A DNA stretch of 49,355 nucleotides from Spirochaetes bacterium ADurb.Bin215 (GTDB taxonomy: Bacteria > Spirochaetota > Spirochaetia > Treponematales > Treponemataceae): contig MWCL01000012.1 of assembly GCA_002070025.1 (NCBI GenBank), positions 1-49,355 of the forward strand, written 5' to 3'. Under the pieces are notes generated by a model. The model had not been told where the DNA came from. It saw only the letters and a program-made list of their open reading frames with translations, and ran no database searches. Made by a program: the position numbers and the translations under genes. Shown here one piece after another: positions 34,230 through 49,355 of the stretch. The first letter of the stretch is position 1. Each line of letters begins with the position of its first letter.

Positions 34230-34982
34230 TCAGATTTTTTTACCGGTCAGCTCTGCCGCCTTCTCACGAACCGCCCGGAACACCGCGTCGGCACCCCCTG
34301 AAGCATTTTCCCGTATCAGGTTCACAAACACGGAGCCAGCGACGACCGCATGCACATGCGGCGCCAGAAGGGCAACCTGTTCACCGGTGCGGATGCCAAA
34401 CCCGCCAAGGACCGCGGAACCGGATGCGCCAACCGTTTCAATAAACGAAATTGTCCGTTCGTCTATTGATGTTTCCTGCCCGGTTATACCGGAACGGAGC
34501 GCCGCGTAGATGAACGGATAGTGTTTGCCCACCAGTGTATTCAACCGGTCTGCGCCCATGGATGGTGCCGCTACCGGAACACAGGACAAACCTTTATGCG
34601 CACACGCAAGCGCCAGTCCTTCGTCTCCATCGAATGGAAGATCGGGAATGATGAGACCATGGACACCCGCGTCGGCAGCCTGCTGTACGAAGGTCTCAAT
34701 ACCACCGCTCCAGGCAAGATTCGCGTAGGTCATTACAAAAACGGGAATGCCGGGATAACTCCGACACAGTCGATTGATAAAGGCAAACGCATCCGCTACC
34801 CGGTATCCCCGGGACAGCACTTCAGAAGAAGCGGTTTGAATGGCAGGGCCATCCGCCCCCGGATCACTGAAAGGAATCTGCACTTCAAAATACGCCACGC
34901 CGCCTTCCGCGAGCCCCCGGGCCGTGGCAAACGCCAGTTCATCAGTCGGGTACCCCGCCACAAGATGTGCCATTACATTCAT
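34230..34982 (-). CDS. trpA: Tryptophan synthase alpha chain
   Basis: 250 residues, slightly shorter than the usual ~265. It cleaves indole-3-glycerol phosphate to indole. Catalytic Glu lies in ARGLAEGGVAYFEVQIPFSD (about 22-41) with the PFSDPGADGPAIQ signature; the catalytic Asp is in GLIIPDLPFDGDEG. C-terminal GGFGIRTGEQV and VVAGSVFVN bind the phosphate. The ATG overlaps the trpB stop by four bases, which couples synthesis of the two subunits. Last gene of the trp operon. Confidence 0.96.
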   Translation of the reverse strand: MNVMAHLVAGYPTDELAFATARGLAEGGVAYFEVQIPFSDPGADGPAIQTASSEVLSRGYRVADAFAFINRLCRSYPGIPVFVMTYANLAWSGGIETFVQQAADAGVHGLIIPDLPFDGDEGLALACAHKGLSCVPVAAPSMGADRLNTLVGKHYPFIYAALRSGITGQETSIDERTISFIETVGASGSAVLGGFGIRTGEQVALLAPHVHAVVAGSVFVNLIRENASGGADAVFRAVREKAAELTGKKI

Positions 34983-36238
34983 CGCTCCACTCCCTCCCCA
35001 TGAATCTCACGCCCGGCATTCAGCCGTTCCAGTTCGGCAGCAAGAAAATCCCGCCATTCCCGCGGCCGGAACTCCGGCGAGGTTATAAACAGGTCCTTGT
35101 CGCCACGGCCGGACATATTCACCACGATCGCCTTGCCGCGGGGGAGTTCCTTCGCGAGCCGCATCGCGGCGGCGCCGGCATGCGCACTTTCGAGCGCGAA
35201 CAGGACACCTTCATTCCGGGCAAAAAACGAGAGCGCTTCCAGCGCTTCTTTGTCTTCTACGGACGTATACTCGATACGGCCCTGTTCACCGAGAGCGGCA
35301 AGCTGGGGTCCGATACCGGGATAATCGAGCCCGGCGGAGATGGAGCGTGTTTCGGCAACCTGGCCGTCTTCGTCCATGAGAAACCGGCTCTTGTAGCCGT
35401 GAATAATACCGTCACGGGCAGCAGTGCCCGTCATCCGCGCGGCATTCTCTCCAGCGCCCGGACCAACACCGCCGGCCTCGGCGCCGACAAGCCGGGGAGC
35501 CGGCTGATCGATGAACGGCGAGAAAAATCCGATGGCGTTTGAACCGCCGCCCACACAGGCAACAAGCGCAGCAACGTCCAGTTTCCGTTCGGCGATTTGT
35601 GTTTTTGTCTCTTCACCTATAATCGACTGGAACGTACGAACCATGTCGGGGAACGGCGCCGGTCCAAGCGCTGAGCCGATGAGGTAGTGGGTAGTCTCAA
35701 ATGACGCGGCCCAGTCCCGCATGGCTTCATTGATGGCATCCTTGAGTATGCGGGAGCCGGAGTGTACCGGAACCACGGTCGCGCCGTAGAGCTCCATGGC
35801 CGCAACATTCGGCTGCTGCCGGCTCACGTCCACCGCGCCCATGTATACCACACATTCCAGGCCGATTTTCGCGCATGCCGCGGCGGTCGCGAGCCCGTGT
35901 TGTCCGGCTCCCGTTTCGGCGATTATCCGTTTTTTCCCCATACGCCGGGCCAGAAGTGCCTGACCTACGGCATTATTGATCTTGTGGGCGCCGGTATGGG
36001 CGAGCCCTTCCATCTTGATATAGATATCCGCCCCGCCGAGTGCGCGGGACGCGTTTGCGGCATGCAGGAACGGCGTTGGCCGCCCGATAAAGTCGGCCCG
36101 GAGCATCTGAAGTTCATCGAGAAACCCCGGATCCGCCATGGCGTCAGTAAAAGCGGCTTCCAGCTCATCGAGCGGCCTCCGCAAAATCTCGGCGACATAT
36201 CGTCCGCCGAACCGGTCAAAAAAGCCTGTCGTTGTCAT
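34979..36238 (-). CDS. trpB: Tryptophan synthase beta chain
   Basis: 419 residues, TrpB1 type. It joins indole and serine using PLP. The PLP lysine is in the motif HTGAHKINNAVGQALLA, the phosphate-binding loop is CVGGGSNAIGFF and the catalytic Glu lies in IIAETGAGQHG. The N-terminal GRFGG-like opening (DRFGGRYVAEIL) is also present. It pairs with TrpA and channels indole internally. The ATG overlaps the trpCF stop (ATGA). Confidence 0.98.
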   Translation of the reverse strand: MTTTGFFDRFGGRYVAEILRRPLDELEAAFTDAMADPGFLDELQMLRADFIGRPTPFLHAANASRALGGADIYIKMEGLAHTGAHKINNAVGQALLARRMGKKRIIAETGAGQHGLATAAACAKIGLECVVYMGAVDVSRQQPNVAAMELYGATVVPVHSGSRILKDAINEAMRDWAASFETTHYLIGSALGPAPFPDMVRTFQSIIGEETKTQIAERKLDVAALVACVGGGSNAIGFFSPFIDQPAPRLVGAEAGGVGPGAGENAARMTGTAARDGIIHGYKSRFLMDEDGQVAETRSISAGLDYPGIGPQLAALGEQGRIEYTSVEDKEALEALSFFARNEGVLFALESAHAGAAAMRLAKELPRGKAIVVNMSGRGDKDLFITSPEFRPREWRDFLAAELERLNAGREIHGEGVER

Positions 36239-37734
36239 GATGCAATCTCCCTGAAAAAACTTGCAATAAGGGTTCCGTCTTTTTTCCCCGGCGCGGATTC
36301 AAGCGAACTTGAAACATCCACGAGTTCCGGGGAGAACTCTTCAAGATACCGTCGTATGTTCGCCGGTCCGATCCCGCCGGCTAGCCAGAGACCGCCATGA
36401 TCCCGTACTTTTCGTACCAGGTTGCGCGGAATGGTCTTGCCGGTACCGCCGGCGATTCCCTCCACCCGGGCATCCACCAGAACACGGGGTTCCCCGTTCT
36501 CCAGAAGAGTGTCGATGCGGGAAAGATCGGCTTCCGAGCCCAGCCGGACCACCGAGTACTTTCCGATACCGTAGTCTCCTCCGGCACGGTCGATACGCGG
36601 AAGATCCCGTCCGGGATTCTCACCGTGGTACTGAATCGCGTCCAGTACGCCCTCGCATACGAGGGAAAAAGCTTCCCTGGCGGCAGCGCTTTCCGTTTCC
36701 GTAACAACTCCCACAAGCAGGGGCAGTTTCCCGGGCAGGGAATACCCCTCGGCGGAAATCTTCGCCCCGATGGCGCGTACGGTTGCCCCATCCGTTTTAC
36801 GGGGACTTTCGGCGAAAATGAACCCGAGCAGATCCGCGCCGTTCTTTGCGGCAAGCAGGGCATCGTCGGTATTGGTAAGACCGCAGACCTTGACGAGCGG
36901 CCGTCCCTTTTCACGGGCTGCCTGAAGGCGTTGTCCCATTTCCCGCCAGAATTGACCGGCCCAGTCCGGCCGAGCTGACGAAAAGGCAGAGACCAGGCGT
37001 CCAGCGTTTTCCGGACTCCGGGCCGCCGCTTCCCCGATCAAAAGCCCTTCAAAACCGAGTCGGCGGGCAAACTGGCAGGCGCCCGGGGTTGTCGCTCCGG
37101 ACTCGAAGACCGAGGTCCCGGGCAGTTTTCTCCGCATGATCGCCGGGACCAGGGGATCGATCTGAAAGGTCGCGAGGTCGCGGGAATTCACGCCGGCAAT
37201 AACCGGCCCGCCCGCTGCCGCAGCGGAAAGCTTATCTAGATCGGCGCTCTCACGCACCTCGATAAGCGGAGTCATGGAAAATGAACGGCAGCGCTGAGCG
37301 AGCCGGAGCAGGGTTTCCGTTTCGAGGATTCGCGCGATGAGGAGCACCGCATCGGCTCCGGCCCGCCAGGACACGTCGATCTCGTCTTCGTAAAGAATGA
37401 AGTCCTTGCGGAGCAGTGCCACATCATAGATACGATCTGATACCGCGAGAAAATCGTTCAGTGAACCTTTAAAAAAGCGTTCCTCCGTCAGAATGGAAAT
37501 GTTTTTCGTTCCGGCTTCACGGTAGTGCCCGGCAAGGGTAACCGGATCAAGATCCGGAGCAATATCGCCACGGGACGGGGACGCGCGCTTTATTTCCAGA
37601 ATCGTTCCCGGTTCCCGGAGAAAGGGAACGAGGGGACGTTTCCGGTGATCCGGCACGGCCACGCCGAAGGTTGCGCCTTTTTGCCGGTAATCCGCGCGCC
37701 GTGCCGAAACTATCTGCTCGAGAATGTCAGGCAC
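36235..37734 (-). CDS. trpCF: Bifunctional indole-3-glycerol-phosphate synthase / phosphoribosylanthranilate isomerase (TrpC-TrpF fusion)
   Basis: 499 residues. The N-terminal TrpC part (about 1-255) has TILEIKRASPSRGDI, ILTEERFFKGSLNDF, LLRKDFILYEDEI and AGVNSRDLATFQID. The C-terminal TrpF part (about 275-499) begins PLVKVCGLTNTDDALLAAKN with the catalytic Cys and includes LLGFIFAESPRK and WLAGGIGPANI. The start is a GTG at 37734 with GGGAGG six bases upstream; an ATG eight codons earlier has weaker support. It overlaps trpGD by 8 nt. The same C-F fusion occurs in Escherichia coli. Confidence 0.95.
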   Translation of the reverse strand: MPDILEQIVSARRADYRQKGATFGVAVPDHRKRPLVPFLREPGTILEIKRASPSRGDIAPDLDPVTLAGHYREAGTKNISILTEERFFKGSLNDFLAVSDRIYDVALLRKDFILYEDEIDVSWRAGADAVLLIARILETETLLRLAQRCRSFSMTPLIEVRESADLDKLSAAAAGGPVIAGVNSRDLATFQIDPLVPAIMRRKLPGTSVFESGATTPGACQFARRLGFEGLLIGEAAARSPENAGRLVSAFSSARPDWAGQFWREMGQRLQAAREKGRPLVKVCGLTNTDDALLAAKNGADLLGFIFAESPRKTDGATVRAIGAKISAEGYSLPGKLPLLVGVVTETESAAAREAFSLVCEGVLDAIQYHGENPGRDLPRIDRAGGDYGIGKYSVVRLGSEADLSRIDTLLENGEPRVLVDARVEGIAGGTGKTIPRNLVRKVRDHGGLWLAGGIGPANIRRYLEEFSPELVDVSSSLESAPGKKDGTLIASFFREIAS

Positions 37735-39319
37735 AACTTGCCTCCCGGACCTTTTCAATCAGGTCGGAGACGCGTCCGTCGGCAATGGCTTCCTTCGCGC
37801 GGGCATATCCAGCCCCGATATCCGGTGCTTCACCGCATATATACAATGTTGCGGCCGCGTTCAGGGCGACCGCTTCCAGAATGCCCTTCCTTCCGGATCC
37901 GTCGAGGACCTCCCGGGCAAGCCGGGCATTTTCCCGTGAATCTCCGCCGAGAAGATCCTCCATCTGACACCCGGTTATACCGAAGGTCTCAGGATTGATG
38001 GTGTATTCGGTAATGGTGCCGTTTCCGTCAATCTCCACCACATCGGTGAGGGCACAGGGTGAAATTTCATCCATTCCGTCGCGGCTGCACACCACCATGA
38101 CCCGGGTGGACCCGAGCATTTTGGAGGCCTGCGCGACCGGGTGCATAAGACTTTTGTCGTACACACCGATCATCTGGAATCGTGCGTTCGCCGGATTTGA
38201 AAGCGGCCCGACCAGATTCATGATGGTCTTTACACCGAGAAGGCGGCGGACCGGCGCGGCAAAACGCATGGCGCTGTGGTACACGGGCGCGTACAGGAAG
38301 CCGAATCCGGTTTTTTCGATCACGTCCGCCGTTTTCGCCGGCGGCACATCGATGCAAATGCCCAGCGCTTCGTAAAAATCAGCCGAACCGGATTTGCTCG
38401 ATACCGCACGATTCCCGTGTTTGGCAATTTTAGCGCCACAGGAAGCAGCCACGAGCGCGGCCATCGAACTGATGTTGAAGCTGCCTATACCGTCACCGCC
38501 GGTGCCGACGACATCAACCAGTTCTCCGGAAACCTGAATGGGAGTCTTTTTTTTGCAGAGAACGGAAGCGCATCCGGCAATTTCCGCCGCCGCGGGACCC
38601 TTTGACGAAATGGCGGTAAGTATGGCCGAAGTTTGCCGTTCATCCAGCGACCCTTCCGTCAGATCTTCCATGAAAAGTTCGGCCGTCTCCCGGTTCAGAT
38701 CCTTCCCGGCAAGAAGCGAAGAAAGAATGGTGCTGAAGGCGAGTCCTTCACGGCGGTACGAAAGAAAAGCCTTGAACAGTTCATCGCCTTTTTCTGCCGC
38801 TATGGATTCGGGATGAAACTGGACGCCTTCAATCGGGAATTCGCGGTGGCGGATCCCCATGATCTCGCCGTCGTCTGCCCGGGCGGTTACTTCCAGTTCT
38901 GCCGGCAGCGAGGCTTCCTCGGCCGCAAGACTGTGATACCGGGTAAAAACACCCTTTTTCCCGATAGTGCGAAACACGCCCTTCCCGTCCAGGGAAATTT
39001 CCTCGGCAATGCCGTGTTTGATGTGTTTCGCCTGCACTATTTTTCCGCCGAATGCCTGGGCAATGGCCTGATGTCCGAGACAAACGCCCAGTATGGGAAT
39101 CTTACCGGCGAAATGCAAAATTGCTTTGATACTTATTCCCGCATCCTCCGGACGGCCCGGACCGGGTGAAATGACCAGGCGGGAGGGAGCAAGCGCAATG
39201 AGTTCCTCAAGGGTTATTTCGTTGTTTCTCACTACCCGGATTTCTTCCGGAGAAAGGCGGGTAAGATACTGGTATACATTGTAGGTAAACGAATCATAGT
39301 TATCGATCAGGACAATCAT
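37727..39319 (-). CDS. trpGD: Anthranilate synthase glutaminase / anthranilate phosphoribosyltransferase (TrpG-TrpD fusion)
   Basis: 530 residues. The TrpG glutamine amidotransferase part (about 1-190) opens MIVLIDNYDSFTYNVYQYL and has the nucleophile Cys in LGVCLGHQAIAQAFGG and the catalytic His/Glu in GVQFHPESI. The TrpD part (about 200-530) has VDVVGTGGDGIGSFNISS (PRPP loop), KHGNRAVSSKSGSAD and MNLVGPLSNPA. The ATG at 39319 overlaps the trpE stop and has GGAGGGG upstream; residues further upstream in frame do not look like TrpG. Enteric bacteria have the same fusion. Confidence 0.95.
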   Translation of the reverse strand: MIVLIDNYDSFTYNVYQYLTRLSPEEIRVVRNNEITLEELIALAPSRLVISPGPGRPEDAGISIKAILHFAGKIPILGVCLGHQAIAQAFGGKIVQAKHIKHGIAEEISLDGKGVFRTIGKKGVFTRYHSLAAEEASLPAELEVTARADDGEIMGIRHREFPIEGVQFHPESIAAEKGDELFKAFLSYRREGLAFSTILSSLLAGKDLNRETAELFMEDLTEGSLDERQTSAILTAISSKGPAAAEIAGCASVLCKKKTPIQVSGELVDVVGTGGDGIGSFNISSMAALVAASCGAKIAKHGNRAVSSKSGSADFYEALGICIDVPPAKTADVIEKTGFGFLYAPVYHSAMRFAAPVRRLLGVKTIMNLVGPLSNPANARFQMIGVYDKSLMHPVAQASKMLGSTRVMVVCSRDGMDEISPCALTDVVEIDGNGTITEYTINPETFGITGCQMEDLLGGDSRENARLAREVLDGSGRKGILEAVALNAAATLYICGEAPDIGAGYARAKEAIADGRVSDLIEKVREASCA

Positions 39320-40734
39320 TTTTCCCCTCCGGTAAGTACAGATTGCATGGCGGCCAGTTTTTCTCCGGTCTCTTCCCATTCGCGTTCGGGATCCGAGGCG
39401 TACACGATTCCGGCTCCTGCCTGGAGAATCCATCGCGCGCCCTTCTTGAGCGCACAGCGGATTGAAATACAGAAATCCAGGTCGCCGTCCGCCTCGATAT
39501 AACCGACGGCCCCGGCGTAAAATCCGCGCCGTACCGATTCAAGGCGTGAAATCGTTTCAATGGCCTGAATTTTCGGGGCCCCGCTCACGGTTCCCGCGGG
39601 AAAGGCGGAACGCAACACATCCACACCGGTTACCGGACCATGCAGTCCTTCCCCGATCTGCCCTACGACATCCGAAACGATATGCATGATATGGGAGAAT
39701 TTTTCCACATCCATGTTCCGGGAAAGCCGAACCGACCCGGGAAGACACACACGACCAAGATCATTCCGCGCAAGATCCACGAGCATCAGATGTTCCGCCC
39801 GTTCCTTGGGATCGGCCAGAAGTTTCTTGCGCAGTTCATCATCTTCCGCCTGGTCCTTGCCGCGTCGGCAGGTTCCGGCAATCGGCCGGATGGAAGCTAC
39901 GGAGTCGCGGACACGCACCAGACTTTCGGGAGACGCACCGACTATCTGGTGGGTACCGAAGTCGAGATAGAAAAGATAGGGGGACGGACTCGTTGACCGG
40001 AGTCGTCGGTACACCTCGAAGGCGGATTCCGGCGAATCAATCTCCAGCCGCCGCGAAAGCACCGCTTGCAGCAGGTTCCCGGCGATAATTTCTTCGCGAA
40101 CCGTCTGAACGCCGGACACAAACTCGTCGTGACTTTTCTGCATATCCGTTACGACGGTACACGGTGCCCGGTCCGCCGGAGGCGCGAGATAGGAAAAGTC
40201 CAGATCTTCAAGACGCCGCTTTATGTCCGCCACCGTCTCTTCAAGATCAATTTCGTGTTGTTCATAATTCAGGGCAAATATGTGAATCGTATCGGTAAAG
40301 TGGTCAAATACGAGGTACACATGGCCTACAATGAACTCCGATTCGTTCAGGGCCAGCGGATCCTGCTGTTCGGCAAGAGTAATGGTATCCGTCCGCTGAC
40401 AGAATTCATACCCAAGATATCCGATTCCAGCGCCGGGAAGAGGAATCCCGTCCGCTGGCAACGCGTTTTGCCCGGCGATTTCCATGAGTACATCGAGAAT
40501 GTCTCCTTTTCCCGCCGGAACATTTTTTCCGTCTATTGCGTAATGTACACCTGCGTCATTCTGAACAACCCGAAATGCCTCTCGAGCCAGAATTATGGAA
40601 TACCGGTCACGTCCATGCGTAAATGACGCTGATTCCAGAATGGCCAATGCTCCAAGTTTTTTTGCCAGCGCGAAGGGGGTGTACCGTTCGCCGGGAACTG
40701 ATACGGCCAGCGCATCTCTCCGCATTTTTTTCAT
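39316..40734 (-). CDS. trpE: Anthranilate synthase component I
   Basis: 472 residues from the ATG at 40734, chosen because AGGAG lies seven bases upstream; an ATG nine codons earlier has no such site. It converts chorismate to anthranilate with TrpG. The feedback-binding motif is AILESASF near residue 31, close to the LLES of tryptophan-inhibited TrpE. The chorismate-binding C-terminal half has PIAGTCRRGKDQAEDD, LVDLARNDLGRV and SAFPAGTVSGAPKIQAIE. First gene of trpE-GD-CF-B-A, all genes overlapping. Confidence 0.96.
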   Translation of the reverse strand: MKKMRRDALAVSVPGERYTPFALAKKLGALAILESASFTHGRDRYSIILAREAFRVVQNDAGVHYAIDGKNVPAGKGDILDVLMEIAGQNALPADGIPLPGAGIGYLGYEFCQRTDTITLAEQQDPLALNESEFIVGHVYLVFDHFTDTIHIFALNYEQHEIDLEETVADIKRRLEDLDFSYLAPPADRAPCTVVTDMQKSHDEFVSGVQTVREEIIAGNLLQAVLSRRLEIDSPESAFEVYRRLRSTSPSPYLFYLDFGTHQIVGASPESLVRVRDSVASIRPIAGTCRRGKDQAEDDELRKKLLADPKERAEHLMLVDLARNDLGRVCLPGSVRLSRNMDVEKFSHIMHIVSDVVGQIGEGLHGPVTGVDVLRSAFPAGTVSGAPKIQAIETISRLESVRRGFYAGAVGYIEADGDLDFCISIRCALKKGARWILQAGAGIVYASDPEREWEETGEKLAAMQSVLTGGEK

Positions 40735-40763
40735 TGTTTCGCTCCTGCCGGTAATTTTCATTC

Positions 40764-40781
40764 GTTACTATCCATAGTAAC
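40764..40781 (-). promoter_or_regulatory. Operator-like palindrome at the trp transcription start
   Basis: GTTACTAT-CC-ATAGTAAC on the plus strand: perfect eight-base arms around two bases, 18 bp in all. It begins six bases after the predicted -10 box, covering about +1 to +18. Its length and half-site form (NTACTA) resemble the TrpR operator, but TrpR itself is not in the window. Confidence 0.55.
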
Positions 40782-40787
40782 ATCGGA

Positions 40788-40817
40788 ACCATACCCCGAA
40801 GAGAGCGTTTCTGTCAA
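40788..40817 (-). promoter_or_regulatory. Predicted promoter, trp operon
   Basis: On the minus strand: perfect -35 TTGACA (40817-40812), 18-nt spacer and -10 TATGGT (40793-40788). It gives a leader of about 45-50 nt to trpE, too short for a leader peptide with an attenuator. Confidence 0.65.
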
Positions 40818-40837
40818 TAGAAACAAATAAAAAAGAC

Positions 40838-40869
40838 AAAAAAAACCGCACCCTGAATCCAGGATGCGG
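40838..40869 (-). terminator. Rho-independent terminator after mmsB
   Basis: On the minus strand CCGCATCCTG-GATT-CAGGGTGCGG (40869-40846) forms a ten-position stem with one G.U-type or mismatched pair, followed by eight T residues (40845-40838). It ends the sugar-transporter operon just ahead of the trp promoter. Confidence 0.9.
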
Positions 40870-40910
40870 CAGGAGAGGTTACGGAAGCATTCGCTGTCCG
40901 TTGAAAAAGA

Positions 40911-42092
40911 CTACTTCGCTTTAGCCCGTTTTTTCGACAGAATATCGAATATGACTGCAGCGAGCAAAACGATACCCTTTACAGACTTTTGCCAGTTCGC
41001 GTCAATTCCAAGTATGGACATACCATTGTTCAGAACACCCATGAAGATGGCACCGACGATTGCTCCACCGACGGTTCCGGTTCCACCGTACGCGGAGGCA
41101 CCACCGATGAAGCACGATCCGATGGCATCAAGCTCATAGTTCGTACCCGCGGCAGGGAATGCAGAATTGAACCGGGCAATACTGGCCAGTGCGGCTACTG
41201 CCGAAAGGAAACCCATGTTCGTGTAAGCGAAGAACAATACCTTGTTTGTATCGATACCGGACAGTTTCGCGGCCTTTTCGTTGCCACCCAGAGCATAGAG
41301 ATGTCGTCCGGGAACTGTTTTTTTCGTGAAATAACTGTAGACCAATACAATCACGGTAAGCAGTATGAGAACGACGGGGATACCCTTGTGCTGGGCAAGG
41401 AACCAACCAATAAGAAGGACAACGACGCTGATGATAACAACCTTGATAATCATGAAAACCATGGGCTCGACATCATAGCCCTTCTTTTTCTTGGTAATTC
41501 TGTCAAGAATTTGAAGGACGATGAACAGTCCGCACACAACGAATGACACGATCATCGTAATGTTGAAGATCGTCGTAGCGTTGGCATCACCAGGCAGATA
41601 ACTGGTGAAATACTTGAGGTAATTGTCCGGGAAGGGGGATATGGTCAAACCGTTAAGAATGGTCATTGCAAGACCCCGCCACAGGAGCATACCGGCAAGG
41701 GTGACGATGAACGGTGGTATGCGGATATACGCTATCCAGAAACCCTGCCATGCGCCGATCGCGATTCCACACAGGAGCGCGATTGCCATACCGACATAGA
41801 TATTCATGCCCATGGTAACGATCATCGTACCGGCGATGGCACCGACGAGGGAGACAATCGAACCTACGGAAAGGTCGATGTTACCGCCGGTAAGGATACA
41901 TAAAAGCATACCAGATGCGAGAATGACGACATACGCGTTCTGGCTGATGATGTTGGAAATGTTCGCGGGATTAAACAGCGATCCCTTATTGAAGGAAACG
42001 ATGAGAAACTGAAATAGGAACATGACAACAACCAACGCAATGAGCATTGTGTTTTTCTTGAGGGTATTCTTTACCCCGAGTGTATGTGCCAT
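40911..42092 (-). CDS. mmsB: Multiple-monosaccharide ABC transporter permease (MmsB/GguB type)
   Basis: 393 residues with about ten membrane segments, of the BPD_transp_2 family. Family signatures are ILTGGNIDLSVGSIVSLVGAI near the N-terminal third, IPPFIVTLAGMLLWRGLA, a cytoplasmic basic loop (ITKKKKGYD), RHLYALGGNEKAAKLSGI and GTVGGAIVGAIFMGVLNNGM. It forms the membrane channel for sugars delivered by the ChvE-like protein. Its ATG overlaps the mmsA stop by one base (TAATG). A strong terminator follows. Confidence 0.92.
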   Translation of the reverse strand: MAHTLGVKNTLKKNTMLIALVVVMFLFQFLIVSFNKGSLFNPANISNIISQNAYVVILASGMLLCILTGGNIDLSVGSIVSLVGAIAGTMIVTMGMNIYVGMAIALLCGIAIGAWQGFWIAYIRIPPFIVTLAGMLLWRGLAMTILNGLTISPFPDNYLKYFTSYLPGDANATTIFNITMIVSFVVCGLFIVLQILDRITKKKKGYDVEPMVFMIIKVVIISVVVLLIGWFLAQHKGIPVVLILLTVIVLVYSYFTKKTVPGRHLYALGGNEKAAKLSGIDTNKVLFFAYTNMGFLSAVAALASIARFNSAFPAAGTNYELDAIGSCFIGGASAYGGTGTVGGAIVGAIFMGVLNNGMSILGIDANWQKSVKGIVLLAAVIFDILSKKRAKAK

Positions 42093-43630
42093 TATTCGAC
42101 TCCTTTTCCGGATTGTAGGATATGTGTCATTATTGCTTCTTGCGTAGCGTTTTTCTGATCAAGCTCGGCGACCATCTTGCCCTCGTTCATCACGTAAATT
42201 CGGTCGCTGATGCCGAGAATTTCCGGCATTTCGGAGGAAATGAACAGAACGGTCTTTCCTTCCTCGACGAGCTGGTTGATGATGCAATAGATCTCGTACT
42301 TCGCACCGACATCGATACCGCGGGTCGGTTCGTCCAGTATGAGTATTTCCGGGTCAGCGAACATCCACTTGGCGAGAAGAACCTTTTGCTGGTTGCCTCC
42401 GGAGAGGTTCCCGGTATTCTGCATGACGGAAGTGCATTTTGTATTCAGCTTGGCCGCAAATTCCTCAGCGACCTGTACCTCGAGGTCCCGGTCAAGGATG
42501 TTGAACTTGCTGATCTTGCTCATGCGGGCCATCGTCGTATTCTCGCAAATCGGAGTAGACAGTATCAGTCCGTTGCCCTTGCGGTCTTCCGTTACATAGG
42601 CGATCTTGTGCGCAATCGCTTGCTTGACAGAGTTGAGATGCACGAGTTGTCCGTTGATGTATGTTTCCCCAGAAATGTCGACTCCGTAGCTCTTGCCAAA
42701 CAGGCTCATCGCAAGCTCGGTTCTACCGGCGCCCATGAGCCCGCTGATTCCGACCACTTCGCCCTTTCTCAGATTGAAACTTACATTATCGCAAACCTTG
42801 CGGCCCTCAAAAATGGGATGGTATACGGTCCAGTTCTTCACCTCGAAGGTAACGTCACCGATGGTATGATTGCGTTTCGGGAACCGGTCCACGAGACTTC
42901 GGCCAACCATGCCGCTGATGATGTCGTCGTCGGTAAATGTATCAGTGCGCTTGTCCAGGGTCTTGATCACCGCTCCATCGCGAATGATGGTGATACGGTC
43001 GGCGACATAGGAAACTTCGTTTATCTTGTGGGATATGATGATCGAGGTCATTCCCTGTTTCTTGAATTCCAGAAGCAGGTCAAGAAGCTTCCTGGAATCG
43101 GTTTCGTTCAGGGACGCGGTCGGTTCGTCGAGAATAAGGAGCTTGACGTTCTTCGCAAGCGCCTTCGCGATTTCGACCAATTGCTGTTTACCGACGCCGA
43201 TATCCTTTATAAGCATCCTCGATGACTCTTTCAGGCCGACCATCTTGAGCAGGGAGTCAGCTTTGGTATACGCCTCGTCCCAATCAATATTCAAATAGGA
43301 ACCGCGTTCGTTCCCCAGAAACATGTTTTCGCCTATGGACAGATATGGTACCAGGGCGAGTTCCTGGTGGATAATAACGATTCCCTTGTTTTCGCTATCC
43401 TTAATGTGATTAAACTTGCAGAGCTTGTCTTCAAATAGAATTTCGCCGGTGTACTCACCGAAGGGATAAATACCGCTCAGGACGTTCATCAATGTTGATT
43501 TACCGGCCCCGTTTTCCCCTACAAGCGCATGGATTTCGCCTTCAGTAATTTCCAGATTAACCGAATCGAGTGCAACAACGCCTGGAAACGTTTTGGTAAT
43601 ATTTCTCATCTCGAGAAGTGCGGTACCCAA
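42092..43630 (-). CDS. mmsA: Multiple-monosaccharide ABC transporter ATP-binding protein (MmsA/GguA type)
   Basis: 512 residues with two ABC domains in tandem, as in RbsA, XylG and MglA. The first domain has Walker [10 protein letters not shown] and Walker [12 protein letters not shown]. The second has a degenerate Walker A ([11 protein letters not shown]) but a good signature region [15 protein letters not shown] and [16 protein letters not shown]. It powers uptake through MmsB. The start is a TTG at 43630 with GGAGG five bases upstream. An 80-nt gap with a long hairpin separates it from chvE. Confidence 0.94.
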
Positions 43631-43657
43631 TTTGTCCTCCCAGCAGATATCAAAAAT

Positions 43658-43686
43658 ACAGACAGGCAGTAAATCTGCCTGTCTGT
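43658..43686 (-). promoter_or_regulatory. 12-bp hairpin between chvE and mmsA
   Basis: ACAGACAGGCAG (43658-43669) and CTGCCTGTCTGT (43675-43686) form a perfect 12-bp stem with a five-base loop. On the minus strand it is followed by ATTTTT. It can serve as a 3' stabiliser and partial terminator, keeping the binding protein more abundant than the ATPase and permease. Confidence 0.8.
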
Positions 43687-43710
43687 TGAAGTTCGAGAAT
43701 ATAGCCCGAT

Positions 43711-44790
43711 TTACTTAACGGCTATATCCGCTTCTGTGTAGTATCCGCTATCGATAAGAAGTTCTTTGTAGTTATCGAGAGTGGCAAATATGGGATCGCA
43801 AAGGAACGAGGGAATGATCCCGGTTCCGTTATCGTAGGTCTTCTTGTCGTTGACGGGAACAGTGTCTCCCTTGGCGATTGCGTTAACCATTTCGACAACC
43901 TGTGCAGCGAGGGTGCGGGTATCCTTGAAGATACTCATGCTCTGGAGGCCCAGGAGCATGTTCTTTACGGATGCCTTGTCGCAGTCCTGACCGGTCAGCA
44001 GCGGGAAATTTGCCTTGGTGTATCCGGCTCCGACGAGAGCGTTGGTAACGCCCTGTGCGGTGGAGTCATTGGACGCCATGACAGCATCGAGCTTCACGCC
44101 CTTCGGGCCGTAGCCAACGGAGGTAATGATGTTCTCGAAGCGCTTCTGTGCTTCTTCGGTTGACCAGGAGGGAGTCGCACACTGTGCGAAAGTCTTCTGA
44201 CCGGACAAGATTTTGATCTTGCCGCTGTCGATATAGGGCTTCAGGATGGAGAGTGCACCATTGAAGAAGAATCCGGCATTGTTGTCTCCGGGGTCACCAG
44301 TGATCAGTTCCATGTTGAAGGGACCGGCGGCAGACTTGAGATTCAGCTTGTCGCGGAGGTATTCACCCTGGATAACACCAACCTTGAAGTTGTCGAACGA
44401 CGCATAGTACGATACGGCGTCGCTGTTCATGATAAGCCGGTCATACGCGATAACCGGGATATTGTTCGCTTTCGCGTCCTTGAGAACCTCGGTCAGCGAC
44501 GAACCGTCGATAGCCGCGATTACGAGAACCTTGCAGCCGCCAACGATCATGTTTTCGATCTGGGCAACCTGGGTGGGGATATCATTGTCGCCCGCATACT
44601 GCAGGTCAACCGCATATCCGGCAGCCTCAAGCTTGGCCTTCATGTTGGCTCCGTCCTGGTTCCAGCGCTGGAGACTCTGGGTCGGCATCGAAACACCGAT
44701 TTTTGCCTTGCCAGCGTCCGCTTTGCCACCGGCAAAAACGAGGCCGGTTGCCAGCACGAGTGCTACAGCAATCATTACGATTTTCTTCAT
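43711..44790 (-). CDS. chvE: ChvE-like multiple-monosaccharide binding protein
   Basis: 359 residues from the ATG at 44790, with GGAGG seven bases upstream. A signal peptide ([20 protein letters not shown]) is cleaved or processed near GGKAD. The mature protein is a periplasmic-binding type 1 fold of the ChvE group: [50 protein letters not shown] and [15 protein letters not shown]. ChvE proteins bind several aldoses such as glucose, galactose, arabinose and xylose. Here it feeds MmsA and MmsB. Sugar preference is not decided by sequence alone. Confidence 0.93.
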
Positions 44791-44824
44791 ACGTATTCCT
44801 CCAAAGAAAAGAGATAGATAATTC

Positions 44825-44853
44825 ATTATGTGGGCGTTTTGGAGGACTGTAAA
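44825..44853 (-). promoter_or_regulatory. Predicted promoter, chvE-mmsA-mmsB
   Basis: On the minus strand: -35 TTTACA (44853-44848), 17-nt spacer and -10 CATAAT (44830-44825). The leader of about 30 nt includes the GGAGG site. The 80 nt upstream of the -35, up to the end of the xylF-like gene, is where the AraC-type regulator would be expected to bind; I see no clear repeat there. Confidence 0.65.
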
Positions 44854-44933
44854 GCGTAATTATTTCACATAGACGGGTAAAAATTTAACCAGAAAGGAGA
44901 AAGCACCCCCGGAAGGGTAATATCATCATGCGA

Positions 44934-46007
44934 TTATTTTACCCGTTCAGGCAAATTCCGGTATACATCTTCCCGGGAATGAAAACCGTCCCGGATAACG
45001 GTGGTGTCCATATTGTCACTGAAAACGGACAACGGTTGTTGCATATAGAAGGGAATCATCACACCGCTCTTGTTGTCCACCACAAGCTCGGTCGGTACCC
45101 GTTTCCCGTATGCCAGGGCCACGGCTACCCCGGCCGCGCTGTTCGCGAGCTTCGCGATCGGTTTATACACCGTCATCAACTGGGTACCCTCGACTACCTT
45201 CTGACAAGCGCCGATATCCGCGTCCTGACCGACCACCGCGACCTTGCCGGCGAGACGATATTCGGACAGAAGCTGAATGGCAGCGCTTGCAATCTGATCA
45301 TTCGCGCAGGAAATTGCGTCGATGTCGCGGGTTCGCTCCAGCACCTTGCCGAGCTTTTCCAGGGCCTCGTCGGAACTCCACTGATCGAGCCAGAGTTCCT
45401 CTACAACATGGACGTCCTTTCGGTTGATCGCGGGATCAAGCTCCTCATGAAGTCCGGAATTAACCTCAAAACTGTTGTTGTCGTGAACGGAGCCGTTCAC
45501 AATCACGTAGTTTCCCTTTGGAACGGCCTCCAGAAGCGTCTTCCCGAAAAGCTTGCCAACCTGCTTGTTGTTGAAAGATACATACGCGTCGATGGGAACG
45601 CCCATGATCAGGCGATCGTAGGCGATAACCGGAATCTTCGCGTCTTTTGCCTTCTTTACGACCCCGGAAAGCATGTCCGTATCGTGGGCGACCACGACAA
45701 GGACGTCGATATCGCTCGCAAGAAGAAAGTTGATCTGTGCTATCTGCTCCTTGGTTCCCCCCGCGGAAAGTTGTACCAGAACGTCGGCCCCCAGGTCTCG
45801 CGCGGCCCCGGTGAATATCTTGATGTCCTTGTTCCATCGCTCGATGATAAAAGTGGCTGTCGCTATCGAAAACCCGATCAGGATCTTGTCTTTTTTGACT
45901 GATGTCTTTGCGCGCGAACAGGAAGTTCCGCTGGCAAAGAGAACCAGAAGGCACAGGGCCATCAGGAACAGACGCCGGGAGGCCAGCTTAATAATTCTGA
46001 TTTCCAT
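44934..46007 (-). CDS. XylF-like sugar-binding lipoprotein (possible sensor partner)
   Basis: 357 residues from the ATG at 46007, with GGAG five bases upstream; it overlaps the end of the response regulator gene by 20 nt. The N-terminus (about 1-30, LFLMALCLLVLFASGTSC) has a lipobox, so the protein is membrane-anchored. The mature part matches XylF-type xylose-binding proteins: [54 protein letters not shown] and TQLMTVYKPIAKLA. Its place in the two-component operon, not the transporter operon, suggests a sensing role like XylFII, which presents xylose to LytS in Clostridium. It could also supply MmsAB with substrate. Confidence 0.88.
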   Translation of the reverse strand: MEIRIIKLASRRLFLMALCLLVLFASGTSCSRAKTSVKKDKILIGFSIATATFIIERWNKDIKIFTGAARDLGADVLVQLSAGGTKEQIAQINFLLASDIDVLVVVAHDTDMLSGVVKKAKDAKIPVIAYDRLIMGVPIDAYVSFNNKQVGKLFGKTLLEAVPKGNYVIVNGSVHDNNSFEVNSGLHEELDPAINRKDVHVVEELWLDQWSSDEALEKLGKVLERTRDIDAISCANDQIASAAIQLLSEYRLAGKVAVVGQDADIGACQKVVEGTQLMTVYKPIAKLANSAAGVAVALAYGKRVPTELVVDNKSGVMIPFYMQQPLSVFSDNMDTTVIRDGFHSREDVYRNLPERVK

Positions 46008-47466
46008 ATCGACTCCTTTCCGCGTACATGCTCGGCGACATGCCGACCGTTTTACGGAATATCTTGCTGAAATAGTTGGGATCCTGATATCCGACAGCAT
46101 ACGCGACCTCTTTTACCGTCAACCGGTTTTCCCGAATCAACTGCTCCGCGTGCCCAACCCTGATTTCGGTCAGGTAATCGACGAAGGTACTGCCCAGGTG
46201 ATCGGAAAAAAGCTTGCTGAGGTACGCGGTTGAAACATGCGCAGCATCCGCAACTTCGGAAAGCTGAATTTGCCGCTCGAAGGACGTTTCGATAAAGGCG
46301 AGCGCGCGTACCAGGGGAACAGGAAACTGTCCCGTACGCTTTCCCCGGGTCATGGTATAGATCCGGTTAAAAGTCGCGAGCGACCAGTCCTTCCAGGCGG
46401 CAAGATCCTCCAGACCCATAATCTCCTCTGCGGGATCGAAGGGAACCGCAGTATCGGAATGACTCTGGTAACAACCGGTGGCGTCGTCGATAAGCAGCGA
46501 AAAGAAGGCCGCCATCTTCGCCTTGGCCATCTCGAAACTATAGGAGGCGAAAATCTCGCTCCAGTATTCAGAGAACAGGGCCCGAACTTCCTCGCAATCG
46601 CTCAAGCCCATCTTGCGCCTGATCTGAATGACACGCAACCGCTCCCGGATACGTACGTCGGTGCTGTCGCGCCGTTTCTGGAGTTCTGACAGTGCCTCCG
46701 TGCAGGAGAGATGAAGCTCGGTACCGGACCGGACGCTTCCCGAGCCGACGATACACAGGACTCCGGCGGGCACACAGTCCTTGAGTGTACGCTCAAGGAA
46801 GGCATCAGCAGCTTCTTTGTCGACCGGACACGGAAAAAAATACATCCCGAGATTCAGGTGAATGGTAAAGAGAAACCGGAACTTGAGCTCGAGGGCTGCG
46901 TTAATCCCGACGAACAGATTCTCCTGCTCGGAATCGAGCCCGACGAAGCAGACGAAGCCGCCGTCCGACTCGAGGCCGAGCGACTCGCGAATTGCGATCG
47001 ACTGTTCCGGACCAAGTTCTTTCCAGATAGTCTCGCTCAGGAACTTGTTGGTACGAAGTCCTGAATCCGGAGAGACACGGCCGCTCCTTCGCTTGCAGAT
47101 CTCCACGCGTACCGCATCGAGCGTTTCCAGAAAGGTCTTTCTCGTAACCGGTTTGACCAGGTACTTGAATATTCCAAGCGGGATTGCCCGGCACGCGAGG
47201 TCGAACCGCTCGTATGCGGTTGAAAGAACGAAGACTGTCCCGGGAAAGTAATCATGGACCCGTTCGATGGCCTCAAGCCCGTCGAGCCCGGGCATGTTGA
47301 TGTCCATGAACACGACATCCGGTTTGAGTTCGTGTATACGGGCGATTGCCTCGGAACCTGAACGCGCGGTTCCGGCAAGCCGGAAATTCTCGACGCCGCT
47401 TTCCAGGATAAAGGAATAGCTCTCAATGACGGGCTCTTCGTCGTCGACGATCAGGACGGTATACAT
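45988..47466 (-). CDS. AraC-type response regulator (YesN family)
   Basis: 492 residues. The receiver domain (1-125) has D8/D9 in VDDEE, phospho-acceptor D55 in FMDINMPG and the conserved Lys in YLVKPVTRK. A middle region of about 250 residues resembles the linker of YesN proteins. The C-terminal AraC domain (about 390-485) has two helix-turn-helix motifs: LSEVADAAHVSTAYLSKLF and VKEVAYAVGYQDPNYFSKIF. It should activate sugar genes when phosphorylated by the adjacent kinase. The most obvious target is the chvE promoter. Overlaps the kinase gene by 16 nt. Confidence 0.92.
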   Translation of the reverse strand: MYTVLIVDDEEPVIESYSFILESGVENFRLAGTARSGSEAIARIHELKPDVVFMDINMPGLDGLEAIERVHDYFPGTVFVLSTAYERFDLACRAIPLGIFKYLVKPVTRKTFLETLDAVRVEICKRRSGRVSPDSGLRTNKFLSETIWKELGPEQSIAIRESLGLESDGGFVCFVGLDSEQENLFVGINAALELKFRFLFTIHLNLGMYFFPCPVDKEAADAFLERTLKDCVPAGVLCIVGSGSVRSGTELHLSCTEALSELQKRRDSTDVRIRERLRVIQIRRKMGLSDCEEVRALFSEYWSEIFASYSFEMAKAKMAAFFSLLIDDATGCYQSHSDTAVPFDPAEEIMGLEDLAAWKDWSLATFNRIYTMTRGKRTGQFPVPLVRALAFIETSFERQIQLSEVADAAHVSTAYLSKLFSDHLGSTFVDYLTEIRVGHAEQLIRENRLTVKEVAYAVGYQDPNYFSKIFRKTVGMSPSMYAERSRYGNQNY

Positions 47467-48941
47467 AGGTCCCTGCCTGTATCAATTCTGATAAGAATCT
47501 CCGTCCCCGCACCCGGTTTCGAGTTGATCGCAATGATCCCGGGATCGTCGGGGAAGAAAAAAAACAACCGCTGGATAACATTTTCGAGCCCCATGACCTT
47601 TGTGTCGGACTCGTGATTCCGCACCGGATGAAGCAGGGACTTGATTACGTCGGCAGAGATTCCGACACCATTGTCCGCGACGGAGAGGCAAAGCCGTCCC
47701 TCCTCACAATACACGCGGACGACAATCGAATTCCGCTCCTGCCGGTCCTTGAAAGCATGAATGACGGAGTTCTCTACAAGGGGTTGAAGGATCGAGGCAG
47801 GAATCTGATAGTCATCGAGCATATCGCGCGGATAATCGAGGACGAGATCAAGGTTCTTGGGGAAGCGCACATTGAGTATGTAAAAATACGACTCGAGACC
47901 CTCAATCTCGTGACGAAGCGGAACGATCACGTTCTTTTCGCGGATGTTATGACGAAACAGCTTGGCAAGATGCTCCATGTAATTTCCGGTACGTTCAGCC
48001 CCCTCGACTATGGCGAGCTGGATGCCGGTATTCAGGGTGTTGAAAAGAAAGTGGGGATTCATCTGTGCCTGGAGGGTGTAGAGCTCCATCTTCCTGAGCA
48101 TGTGCTCCATGCGCATGTTGCGCACCCGCTCCTGCATGTATTCCTGCTCGACGTTTCTCTGCCAGCGGATCTCCTGGATATAGGTATGGAGGTCTTTCTT
48201 CATGCGGTTGAAGGCGGAGACGACATGGTCTATCTCATAAAGCCTGGTCATCCCGATATCCTCGATCTCGAAATTACCCGCGGAAAGCTGGGCAGCCATC
48301 TGCGAAAGATTGACCATCGGACGATTTATCTTCTCGACGGTATGGACCAGGATGGATAGCGAAAATAACGAAATGAATAGGATGAACATGAGATTCCAGA
48401 ACTGTATTTGACCGGAGGTTTCGATAAAACGCTCATACTCGGACAACTGTCCGGCAAACCGCGCGCTCGATATGCTCTCGATCTCCCTGTTGATGTATCC
48501 GTCGATAGCCTGCATCTCGTCGAAAAGGCTGGTGTACCTGGGAATGTCCATACCGCGCTTCTCCTCGATTACGGTGTTCGCGAGATCGAGATAGGCAAAC
48601 ATGAGAGAGTACACCTCCTTCTCCTGGAGGGAAAGCGGATCCTTCGGTACAGCTTCGAAAACCGGAATGACCTCGTGCATCTTTTGCGTCATGACGAGAA
48701 GTTCTGACAAGGCGTTCGAGGATTTCGTCGAGAGGAAATCGAGAAAGGGTCCCTGGAATTCCTCGAGCCGGTCCTGCATGTCTTTGAGATACCGCTGCTG
48801 GAAAAAATTGCGGTCGACAATACCCTGCAGACGGATTGTAGAAAAAAGGATATACGCGGCCGAGAACATCAGTATGATTAACACACCGATAATATTGACG
48901 AGCATCTGAACCCGGAATGAGTTGTAGAAACTGCGCTTCAT
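47451..48941 (-). CDS. LytS/YesM-family sensor histidine kinase
   Basis: 496 residues. Two membrane helices (about 13-35 and 181-203) enclose an external domain of about 145 helical residues. A HAMP-like segment follows (about 204-260) and a coiled coil. The His_kinase domain has the phospho-acceptor in LQAQMNPHFLFNTLNTGIQ, then the N-box LQPLVENSVIHAF and ADNGVGI in the ATPase domain. The external domain has no obvious sugar-binding fold, so signal entry probably depends on a binding protein encoded beside it. The ATG overlaps the upstream binding-protein stop by four bases. Confidence 0.92.
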   Translation of the reverse strand: MKRSFYNSFRVQMLVNIIGVLIILMFSAAYILFSTIRLQGIVDRNFFQQRYLKDMQDRLEEFQGPFLDFLSTKSSNALSELLVMTQKMHEVIPVFEAVPKDPLSLQEKEVYSLMFAYLDLANTVIEEKRGMDIPRYTSLFDEMQAIDGYINREIESISSARFAGQLSEYERFIETSGQIQFWNLMFILFISLFSLSILVHTVEKINRPMVNLSQMAAQLSAGNFEIEDIGMTRLYEIDHVVSAFNRMKKDLHTYIQEIRWQRNVEQEYMQERVRNMRMEHMLRKMELYTLQAQMNPHFLFNTLNTGIQLAIVEGAERTGNYMEHLAKLFRHNIREKNVIVPLRHEIEGLESYFYILNVRFPKNLDLVLDYPRDMLDDYQIPASILQPLVENSVIHAFKDRQERNSIVVRVYCEEGRLCLSVADNGVGISADVIKSLLHPVRNHESDTKVMGLENVIQRLFFFFPDDPGIIAINSKPGAGTEILIRIDTGRDLCIPS

Positions 48942-49355
48942 TCCTGTCTCCTGAATCTGTCCCTGTCCGGCCGCCGGACCGACTCGTTTTTCGCCTCGAG
49001 GACATCAATACCGGAATCGACCGACGTCGAGGTGTAGCCTGTCGTGCAGAGCTCGGAAAGGGACTTCATCGCCTGGTAACCCATGAGAAAGGGATTTACC
49101 ACAAGAGATCCCTTCACAATGCCCATTTCGATAAAATGGCGAATTGAGGGATCGTTGCCGAAGGCCACAACGTGGATGCGTCCAACCTGATTGAGGTCGA
49201 TCAGGGTCTGCGTTCCGGCGAGGGTGTCGTTGAGGTCGGTAAAGAGAATTGTGTTTACCTCGGGCTCGTTTCGCAGAAGCTGATAAACGGTCTTTTCCGC
49301 GTCGCGGGGATTGAGATCCGTATGATGAATCGATATGGGCCCCGACAGCCGGGAA
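48938..49355 (-). CDS. Sugar-binding protein, C-terminal part (cut by window edge)
   Basis: 138 residues are visible, reading in from the window edge in the frame that begins at 49354. They match the C-terminal half of a periplasmic-binding type 1 protein: VNTILFTDLNDTLAGTQTLIDL, VGRIHVVAFGNDPSIRHFI, MGIVKGSLVVNPFLMGYQAM. The N-terminus lies outside the window. Four-base overlap with the kinase gene places it first in the sensory operon, as a likely signal-binding partner of the kinase. It differs from the XylF-like protein encoded at the other end of this operon. Confidence 0.85.
   Translation of the reverse strand, partial: SRLSGPISIHHTDLNPRDAEKTVYQLLRNEPEVNTILFTDLNDTLAGTQTLIDLNQVGRIHVVAFGNDPSIRHFIEMGIVKGSLVVNPFLMGYQAMKSLSELCTTGYTSTSVDSGIDVLEAKNESVRRPDRDRFRRQE

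Follow-up and report, generated by a model that had tools for sequence, protein, structure and literature searches.

A probable two-operator, lineage-specific TrpR regulon for tryptophan synthesis and uptake in spirochaetes

Introduction

What reads the palindromic DNA at the start of a spirochaete trp operon, and could it be a relative of TrpR, the textbook repressor? The question arises in a stretch of 49,355 nucleotides from Spirochaetes bacterium ADurb.Bin215, hereafter the window, for which a first-pass annotation had proposed a TrpR-like operator at the trp transcription start. A spirochaete-wide TrpR system with its own operator would fit poorly with a gammaproteobacteria-only picture: a regulon survey of the Proteobacteria finds TrpR in gammaproteobacteria only (PMC5343134; PMC-numbered sources are cited from excerpts throughout), and according to a 2005 paper trpR arose within the gammaproteobacteria, spirochaete TrpR not being treated in the available part of its text (PMC1173090). 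PMC1475646 concerns tRNA synthetases, and no earlier description of a spirochaete TrpR regulon was found in the open-licence PMC literature.

Results

Two palindromes at the trp promoter

The trp genes of the window lie on the minus strand in the order trpE-GD-CF-B-A. Pfam matches identify trpE (39316–40761), trpGD (37727–39319), trpCF (36235–37758, IGPS and PRAI domains) and, together with NCBIfam, trpB (34979–36238); trpA (34230–34982) was named from its sequence and then served as the query for trpA in relatives. The longest open reading frame of trpE opens at 40761, but the ATG at 40734, which by eye follows an AGGAG, is the likelier start because the matches of relatives begin at query residue 6 at least. 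For trpGD the frame opens at 39433 and the start at 39319 was picked by eye. Both trpGD and trpCF are gene fusions (36235–39433), and the reading frames of adjacent trp genes share a few bases.

Directly upstream, also on the minus strand, a sugar-type ABC transporter cluster (40911–49355) includes genes for binding proteins, for a response regulator and for a sensor of the His_kinase family. It ends in a terminator-like hairpin on the same strand (40845–40870; one found, 0.3 in shuffles), which separates it from the trp promoter.

Only one promoter-like match was detected within 40700–40920 (0.1 in shuffles): on the minus strand, a -35 hexamer TTGACA (40812–40817) and a -10 hexamer TATGGT (40788–40793), separated by an 18-bp spacer and together holding 10 of 12 consensus bases, read into the trp operon. 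Six bases (TCCGAT) past the -10 begins the predicted proximal operator, 40764–40781, which reads GTTACTATCCATAGTAAC on the plus strand and in which a 2-bp centre separates two perfect 8-bp arms; from this distance, transcription would start on the first bases of the palindrome. A predicted distal operator, GTTTCTATTGACAGAAAC on the minus (coding) strand, occupies 40807–40824 and encloses the -35 hexamer, with the two centres 43 bp apart. These two are the only matches in the window with up to three mismatches, compared to 0.05 expected from shuffles. The first-pass annotation had thus described the 18-bp palindrome, its perfect arms and its position six bases past the -10 of the TTGACA promoter correctly. 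Its single operator at the start corresponds to our proximal site, and the second one, over the -35, had been missed.

Further copies in the same genome

The genome of the window (2.6 Mb in 189 contigs) was searched with the relaxed pattern GTTNCTNTNNANAGNAAC, its reversed form serving as control; matches without mismatch are called exact sites. Three exact sites were found, none with the control. Two are those of the trp promoter and the third, C19:25696, encloses a TTGACA ahead of a second, solo trpB (TIGR00263, 522.5 bits). Allowing two mismatches removed any enrichment (70 sites versus 75 in the control). With one mismatch there are six sites, of which C4:65188 (GTTACTACACATAGTAAC) stands 14 bases ahead of a gene for a PF04392 substrate-binding protein. 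The best NCBIfam model for this protein is TrpX, the binding protein of a tryptophan ABC transporter, at 246.7 bits, below the cut-off of 390. Another, on C118, is inside a gene, and the rest are on C20, C66, C73 and C131.

Sites upstream of tryptophan genes in relatives

A sample of 98 genomes from the order was analysed, in which the TrpR family was found in 82 genomes, trpE in 40, trpX-like genes in 65 and trpA in 40. Within 300 bp upstream of trpE (30 loci, out of the 40 genomes with a match), an exact site was present at 17 loci and a site with at most one mismatch at 22; the misses include two loci that begin inside the gene (L072, L075) and one with 6 bp of upstream DNA (L085). For trpX, 50 of the 65 genomes with a match were taken, the remainder being weaker paralogues, and the corresponding counts were 21 and 37 (14 and 24 in a first batch of 30, 7 and 13 in the further 20), with misses that include loci having 2 bp (L089) and 57 bp (L156) upstream. 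The solo trpB sample came from the 25 genomes of a clade with 76–100% identity, out of 81 with a match; one locus without upstream DNA (L376) was omitted, and 15 of the other 24 had an exact site and 20 a site within one mismatch. By comparison, 300-bp control windows taken from other parts of these loci had exact sites in 0/992 and sites within one mismatch in 2/992 (exact 0/335, 0/309, 0/96 and 0/252, and within one mismatch 1, 1, 0 and 0, for trpE, trpX, the further trpX batch and solo trpB). Two checks suggested by the first-pass annotation, for the palindrome in orthologous operons and for more copies at tryptophan-related genes, therefore gave positive answers, the former in the 22 trpE loci and the latter at trpX and solo trpB.

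The paired arrangement is also conserved. Leaving the window itself uncounted, 8 of 10 full-length or partial trpE loci from its genus have both sites within one mismatch, the distal one holding TTGACA, and the trpE locus of G005 has one site. In most of the genus the starts of the two operators are separated by 42–44 bp, in G008 by 48 bp and elsewhere by 34–52 bp; a fixed helical phasing of the pair was considered and dropped, as this spacing varies among relatives. Of 85 collected sites, 69 have bases complementary to each other at positions 4 and 15, which are free in the search pattern; the conservation of the fixed positions follows from site selection and carries no evidential weight.

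By BLAST, trpE, trpB-like, trpC or trpX genes are adjacent to the exact site in 32 of 46 loci, a set made of 29 returned by the motif search and 17 chosen, among the sites listed, as still unexplained, and hence not a random sample. In G028 both trpX and the solo trpB are preceded by sites. Tryptophan transporters of the TrpP family lie beside the site in L122 (the same locus as L221) and L218 (34.4 and 47.5 bits, cut-off 27.2), and a transporter of the sodium:neurotransmitter symporter family (PF00209) in L209. An exact site in G020 (L134:1501) is shortly ahead of a gene resembling indolepyruvate ferredoxin oxidoreductase (IOR_alpha model, 538.5 bits, below the cut-off of 650.9). Genes near the exact sites of L124, L206, L207, L210, L211, L212, L219 and L220 have no evident link to tryptophan.

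One and the same exact site, GTTTCTTTTAATAGAAAC, is found 114–129 bp ahead of RelA/SpoT-like genes in L211:1800 (G070) and L212:1828 (G084), the gene being recognised by family scan in G070 and by similarity to the G070 sequence in G084. These sites may be due to chance, or tryptophan may be linked to the stringent response.

Solo trpB in genomes without trpE and trpA

The solo trpB of the window's genome (L018:2750–3955, on C19) has no trpA beside it, and its clade (L352–L376) is present in 25 of the 98 genomes. In 13 of these 25, no match to trpE or trpA was obtained. Of the 12 such genomes with upstream DNA, 11 have a site within one mismatch ahead of the solo trpB. As no trpA would supply indole there, the solo TrpB would need indole from outside. 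This suggests an indole salvage through solo trpB under putative TrpR control, which recalls, by analogy, the trpRBA genes of Chlamydia.

Sites and TrpR occur together

The genome of the window encodes one TrpR-family protein, of 107 residues (L017:3159–3482; C77:8706–8954; PF01371, 63.3–63.5 bits, cut-off 27), so that the trpR which the first-pass annotation had recommended looking for does exist. Among the 98 genomes, the TrpR-positive ones contain 111 exact sites versus 10 for the control pattern, and the TrpR-negative ones 8 versus 6. Exact sites occur in 54 of the 82 TrpR-positive genomes, the other 28 having none, and in 4 of the 16 TrpR-negative genomes (Fisher p 0.004, a generous value because related genomes are treated as independent).

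The gene neighbourhood provides a second connection. In G071, G079, G090 and G093, trpR and trpX are divergent neighbours, with exact sites between them in G071 and G079 and two-mismatch sites only in G090 and G093. Within 250 bp upstream of trpR, a site with up to one mismatch was detected at 4 of 74 loci, and the two exact ones are those shared with trpX, which indicates that TrpR self-regulation is not general.

These data bear on the possibility that the palindrome is indeed an operator of the tryptophan pathway, but is read by another transcription factor that the TrpR-bearing genomes happen to retain as well. Four genomes speak for it: G017, G054, G083 and G084 have sites at tryptophan genes, yet no TrpR was found in them by the family search or by a search with a spirochaete profile, the latter without a positive control of its own. 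These are drafts with completeness values of 70, 93, 94 and 88%, respectively, so either incompleteness or another reader of the motif may explain them. The operator word of the TrpR consensus, TGTAcTnGTnnACnAgTACA (PMC9413887), is moreover not matched by the spirochaete sites. Against this, the sites and TrpR co-occur, trpR adjoins trpX with exact sites between them in two genomes, and the TrpR family is a known family of tryptophan-sensing repressors. We consider a different reader unlikely, and TrpR the protein most probably acting at these sites.

Reach across the phylum

The spirochaete TrpR profile matches 223 of 392 genomes of the phylum, and exact sites are present in 159 of the 392. 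Outside the order, 31 genomes with strong profile matches (E-value 3.3e-33 or better, among the matches listed) were analysed; 22 of them have a site, with 38 sites versus 12 in the control, an enrichment weaker than within the order. We also picked by eye, among the matches listed, 20 motif-bearing regions from other spirochaete families whose genes were not known beforehand. In 18 of them the motif leads into trpE-like or trpB-like genes, the former with 37–61% identity to trpE and the latter of the solo type or distant. A search of a broader sequence collection gave 437 confirmed loci, and the best 80 are all from spirochaetes, including Treponema, Breznakiella and Brucepastera parasyntrophica.

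Two families depart from this pattern. The 36 small genomes of family f7 have no TrpR among the matches listed, and the site is present in 1 of 36 (by eye). In family f30, the TrpR profile gives weak hits in 27 of 29 genomes, and the motif occurs in 2 of 29 (by eye); the TrpR-like protein of this family may recognise another DNA word or another ligand.

The spirochaete TrpR protein

The TrpR equivalog model TIGR01321 is the best model for the protein, although its score, 56.8 bits, is below the cut-off of 67.25. The TrpR model matches 23 of 23 aligned members and the YerC model 17 of 23; identity with HisR/YerC (TIGR02531) was rejected on score (22.4 bits, cut-off 42.2). An AlphaFold model of the protein shows six helices with a mean pLDDT of 89.6. 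With Foldseek, the 42 best rows are TrpR-family structures, the first 41 at a probability of 1.00, with a best E-value of 0.0065 and none below 0.001. With VIA, the 24 best rows are also TrpR-family, led by 3frw at Z 11.2, and the next, unrelated row is at 5.8; values below 13 are not strong for helical folds. The putative TrpR/HisR-type entries 3frw, 3g1c and 3kor (Z 10.2–11.2) score slightly above E. coli TrpR (6f9k, Z 9.1, rmsd 3.6, 101 aligned). The modelled spirochaete protein thus has the TrpR fold.

Residue conservation was measured in 74 of the 82 TrpR sequences, with the DNA-contacting positions of E. coli TrpR taken from PMC9413887. In the alignment to E. coli TrpR, R67, T81 and R82 correspond to the DNA-contacting Arg69, Thr83 and Arg84, and L77, C78 and K79 replace Ile79, Ala80 and Thr81. 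R67, L77, C78, T81 and R82 are present in 74/74 sequences and K79 in 73/74. In the E. coli pocket, Arg84 contacts the carboxylate of tryptophan, Thr81 the indole nitrogen and Ser88 the amino group, with Arg54 against the ring (PMC8248821; tryptophan-contacting residues also from PMC8081663). The equivalents of Arg54 and Arg84 are kept in 74/74 sequences and that of Thr44 in 72/74; Thr81 has become Lys and Ser88 Glu in 73/74. The Glu at the Ser88 position is predicted to be able to pair with the amino group of tryptophan.

The Lys and Glu replacements could also mean that TrpR reads the sites but responds to something other than tryptophan, perhaps a second amino acid or a different indole compound, in the manner of HisR and histidine. 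Members of the family are known to change ligand, HisR being the example (PMC9413887), and one exact site is that ahead of the indolepyruvate oxidoreductase-like gene. The invariant Arg54 and Arg84 equivalents, the nearly invariant Thr44 and the role of most identified targets in tryptophan synthesis or import argue in the other direction, and make a different ligand quite improbable. Tryptophan is the corepressor that we infer.

Discussion

We propose, as a highly probable explanation, that the window's locus belongs to a two-operator, lineage-specific TrpR regulon that covers the trp operon, the solo trpB and the trpX-like uptake gene. A tryptophan-loaded dimer of the TrpR-family protein would bind at both operators, over the -35 as well as at the start site, and would keep RNA polymerase off the trp promoter; at low tryptophan the dimer would release the operators. 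The same TrpR would also control the solo trpB and the trpX-like gene. An action of the palindrome in RNA, within a leader hairpin or riboswitch, would suit the proximal copy, which would sit at the 5' end of the transcript, but is hardly credible given that the distal copy over the -35 would not be transcribed, that site-to-gene distances vary, that the leader would be some 47 nt long and that an Rfam scan of 40500–41000, after which this reading was dropped, gave no family at threshold (sole match isrC, 17.6 bits versus 39).

Beyond this TrpR regulon, a further and tentative proposal, which we regard as possible rather than probable, is that spirochaete TrpR is a distinct class, marked by a one-base shift of the half-site and by a charged Lys/Glu pocket that holds the corepressor in a new way, re-used for indole salvage by solo TrpB and uptake in genomes without trpE and trpA. 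The regulon predicts which spirochaete genes should respond to tryptophan, among them uptake genes and the solo trpB where trpE is absent. With an operator of its own, and with changes in the recognition helix and the pocket that look matched, a TrpR system spread through the spirochaetes would be a second, natural design to set beside E. coli TrpR, a protein that also serves as a biosensor scaffold (PMC8081663).

The proposed regulon shares with that of E. coli and other gammaproteobacteria a PF01371 protein, a dyad of 18–20 bp over the trp promoter, and trpE and transport genes as targets; as in a TrpR-type regulon, the operators are at promoters of both tryptophan biosynthesis and tryptophan transport genes. 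It differs in that sites are rarely found upstream of trpR and that solo trpB and trpX are among the targets. The core of the TrpR regulon is described as trpR and trpE, with a motif that changes by taxon (PMC5343134). By eye, the proximal site of the window agrees with the consensus of PMC9413887 at 7 of 16 fixed bases. The 18-bp frame and the outer G are the same, but the CT is one base nearer the dyad: the spirochaete half-site is GTT(A/T)CT with a 6-bp spacer, that of the consensus GNACT with an 8-bp spacer. In the protein, Ile79, Ala80, Thr81 and Ser88 of E. coli are Leu, Cys, Lys and Glu. As far as can be judged from the sequences, the kept Arg67 and outer G, and the changed Leu-Cys-Lys and shifted CT, would fit a co-evolved pair. 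The first-pass annotation was therefore right that the operator is unlike the CTAG-core word of E. coli, and its TrpR-like label is supported, with the amendment that neither the protein nor its DNA word is the same as in E. coli.

HisR (YerC) has the same fold (3g1c versus the spirochaete model, Z 10.3, rmsd 3.0, 95 aligned), but has another motif, cacTTTAnnnnnnTAAAgtg, and his genes as targets (PMC9413887), and the spirochaete protein scores below the cut-off of its model TIGR02531. In streptococci, trpX of the trpXYZ operon is tuned to tryptophan supply by T-box control (PMC9382623), that is, by an RNA element that senses tRNA, whereas a DNA palindrome stands ahead of the spirochaete trpX. 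A close likeness for the solo trpB is with Chlamydia trachomatis, where trpB, although the trp pathway is not complete, is under the control of a tryptophan-dependent TrpR (PMC7755916), as the solo trpB would be in the spirochaetes. The gene arrangement differs: in Chlamydia a single operon holds trpR and trpBA, whereas the spirochaete trpB stands alone.
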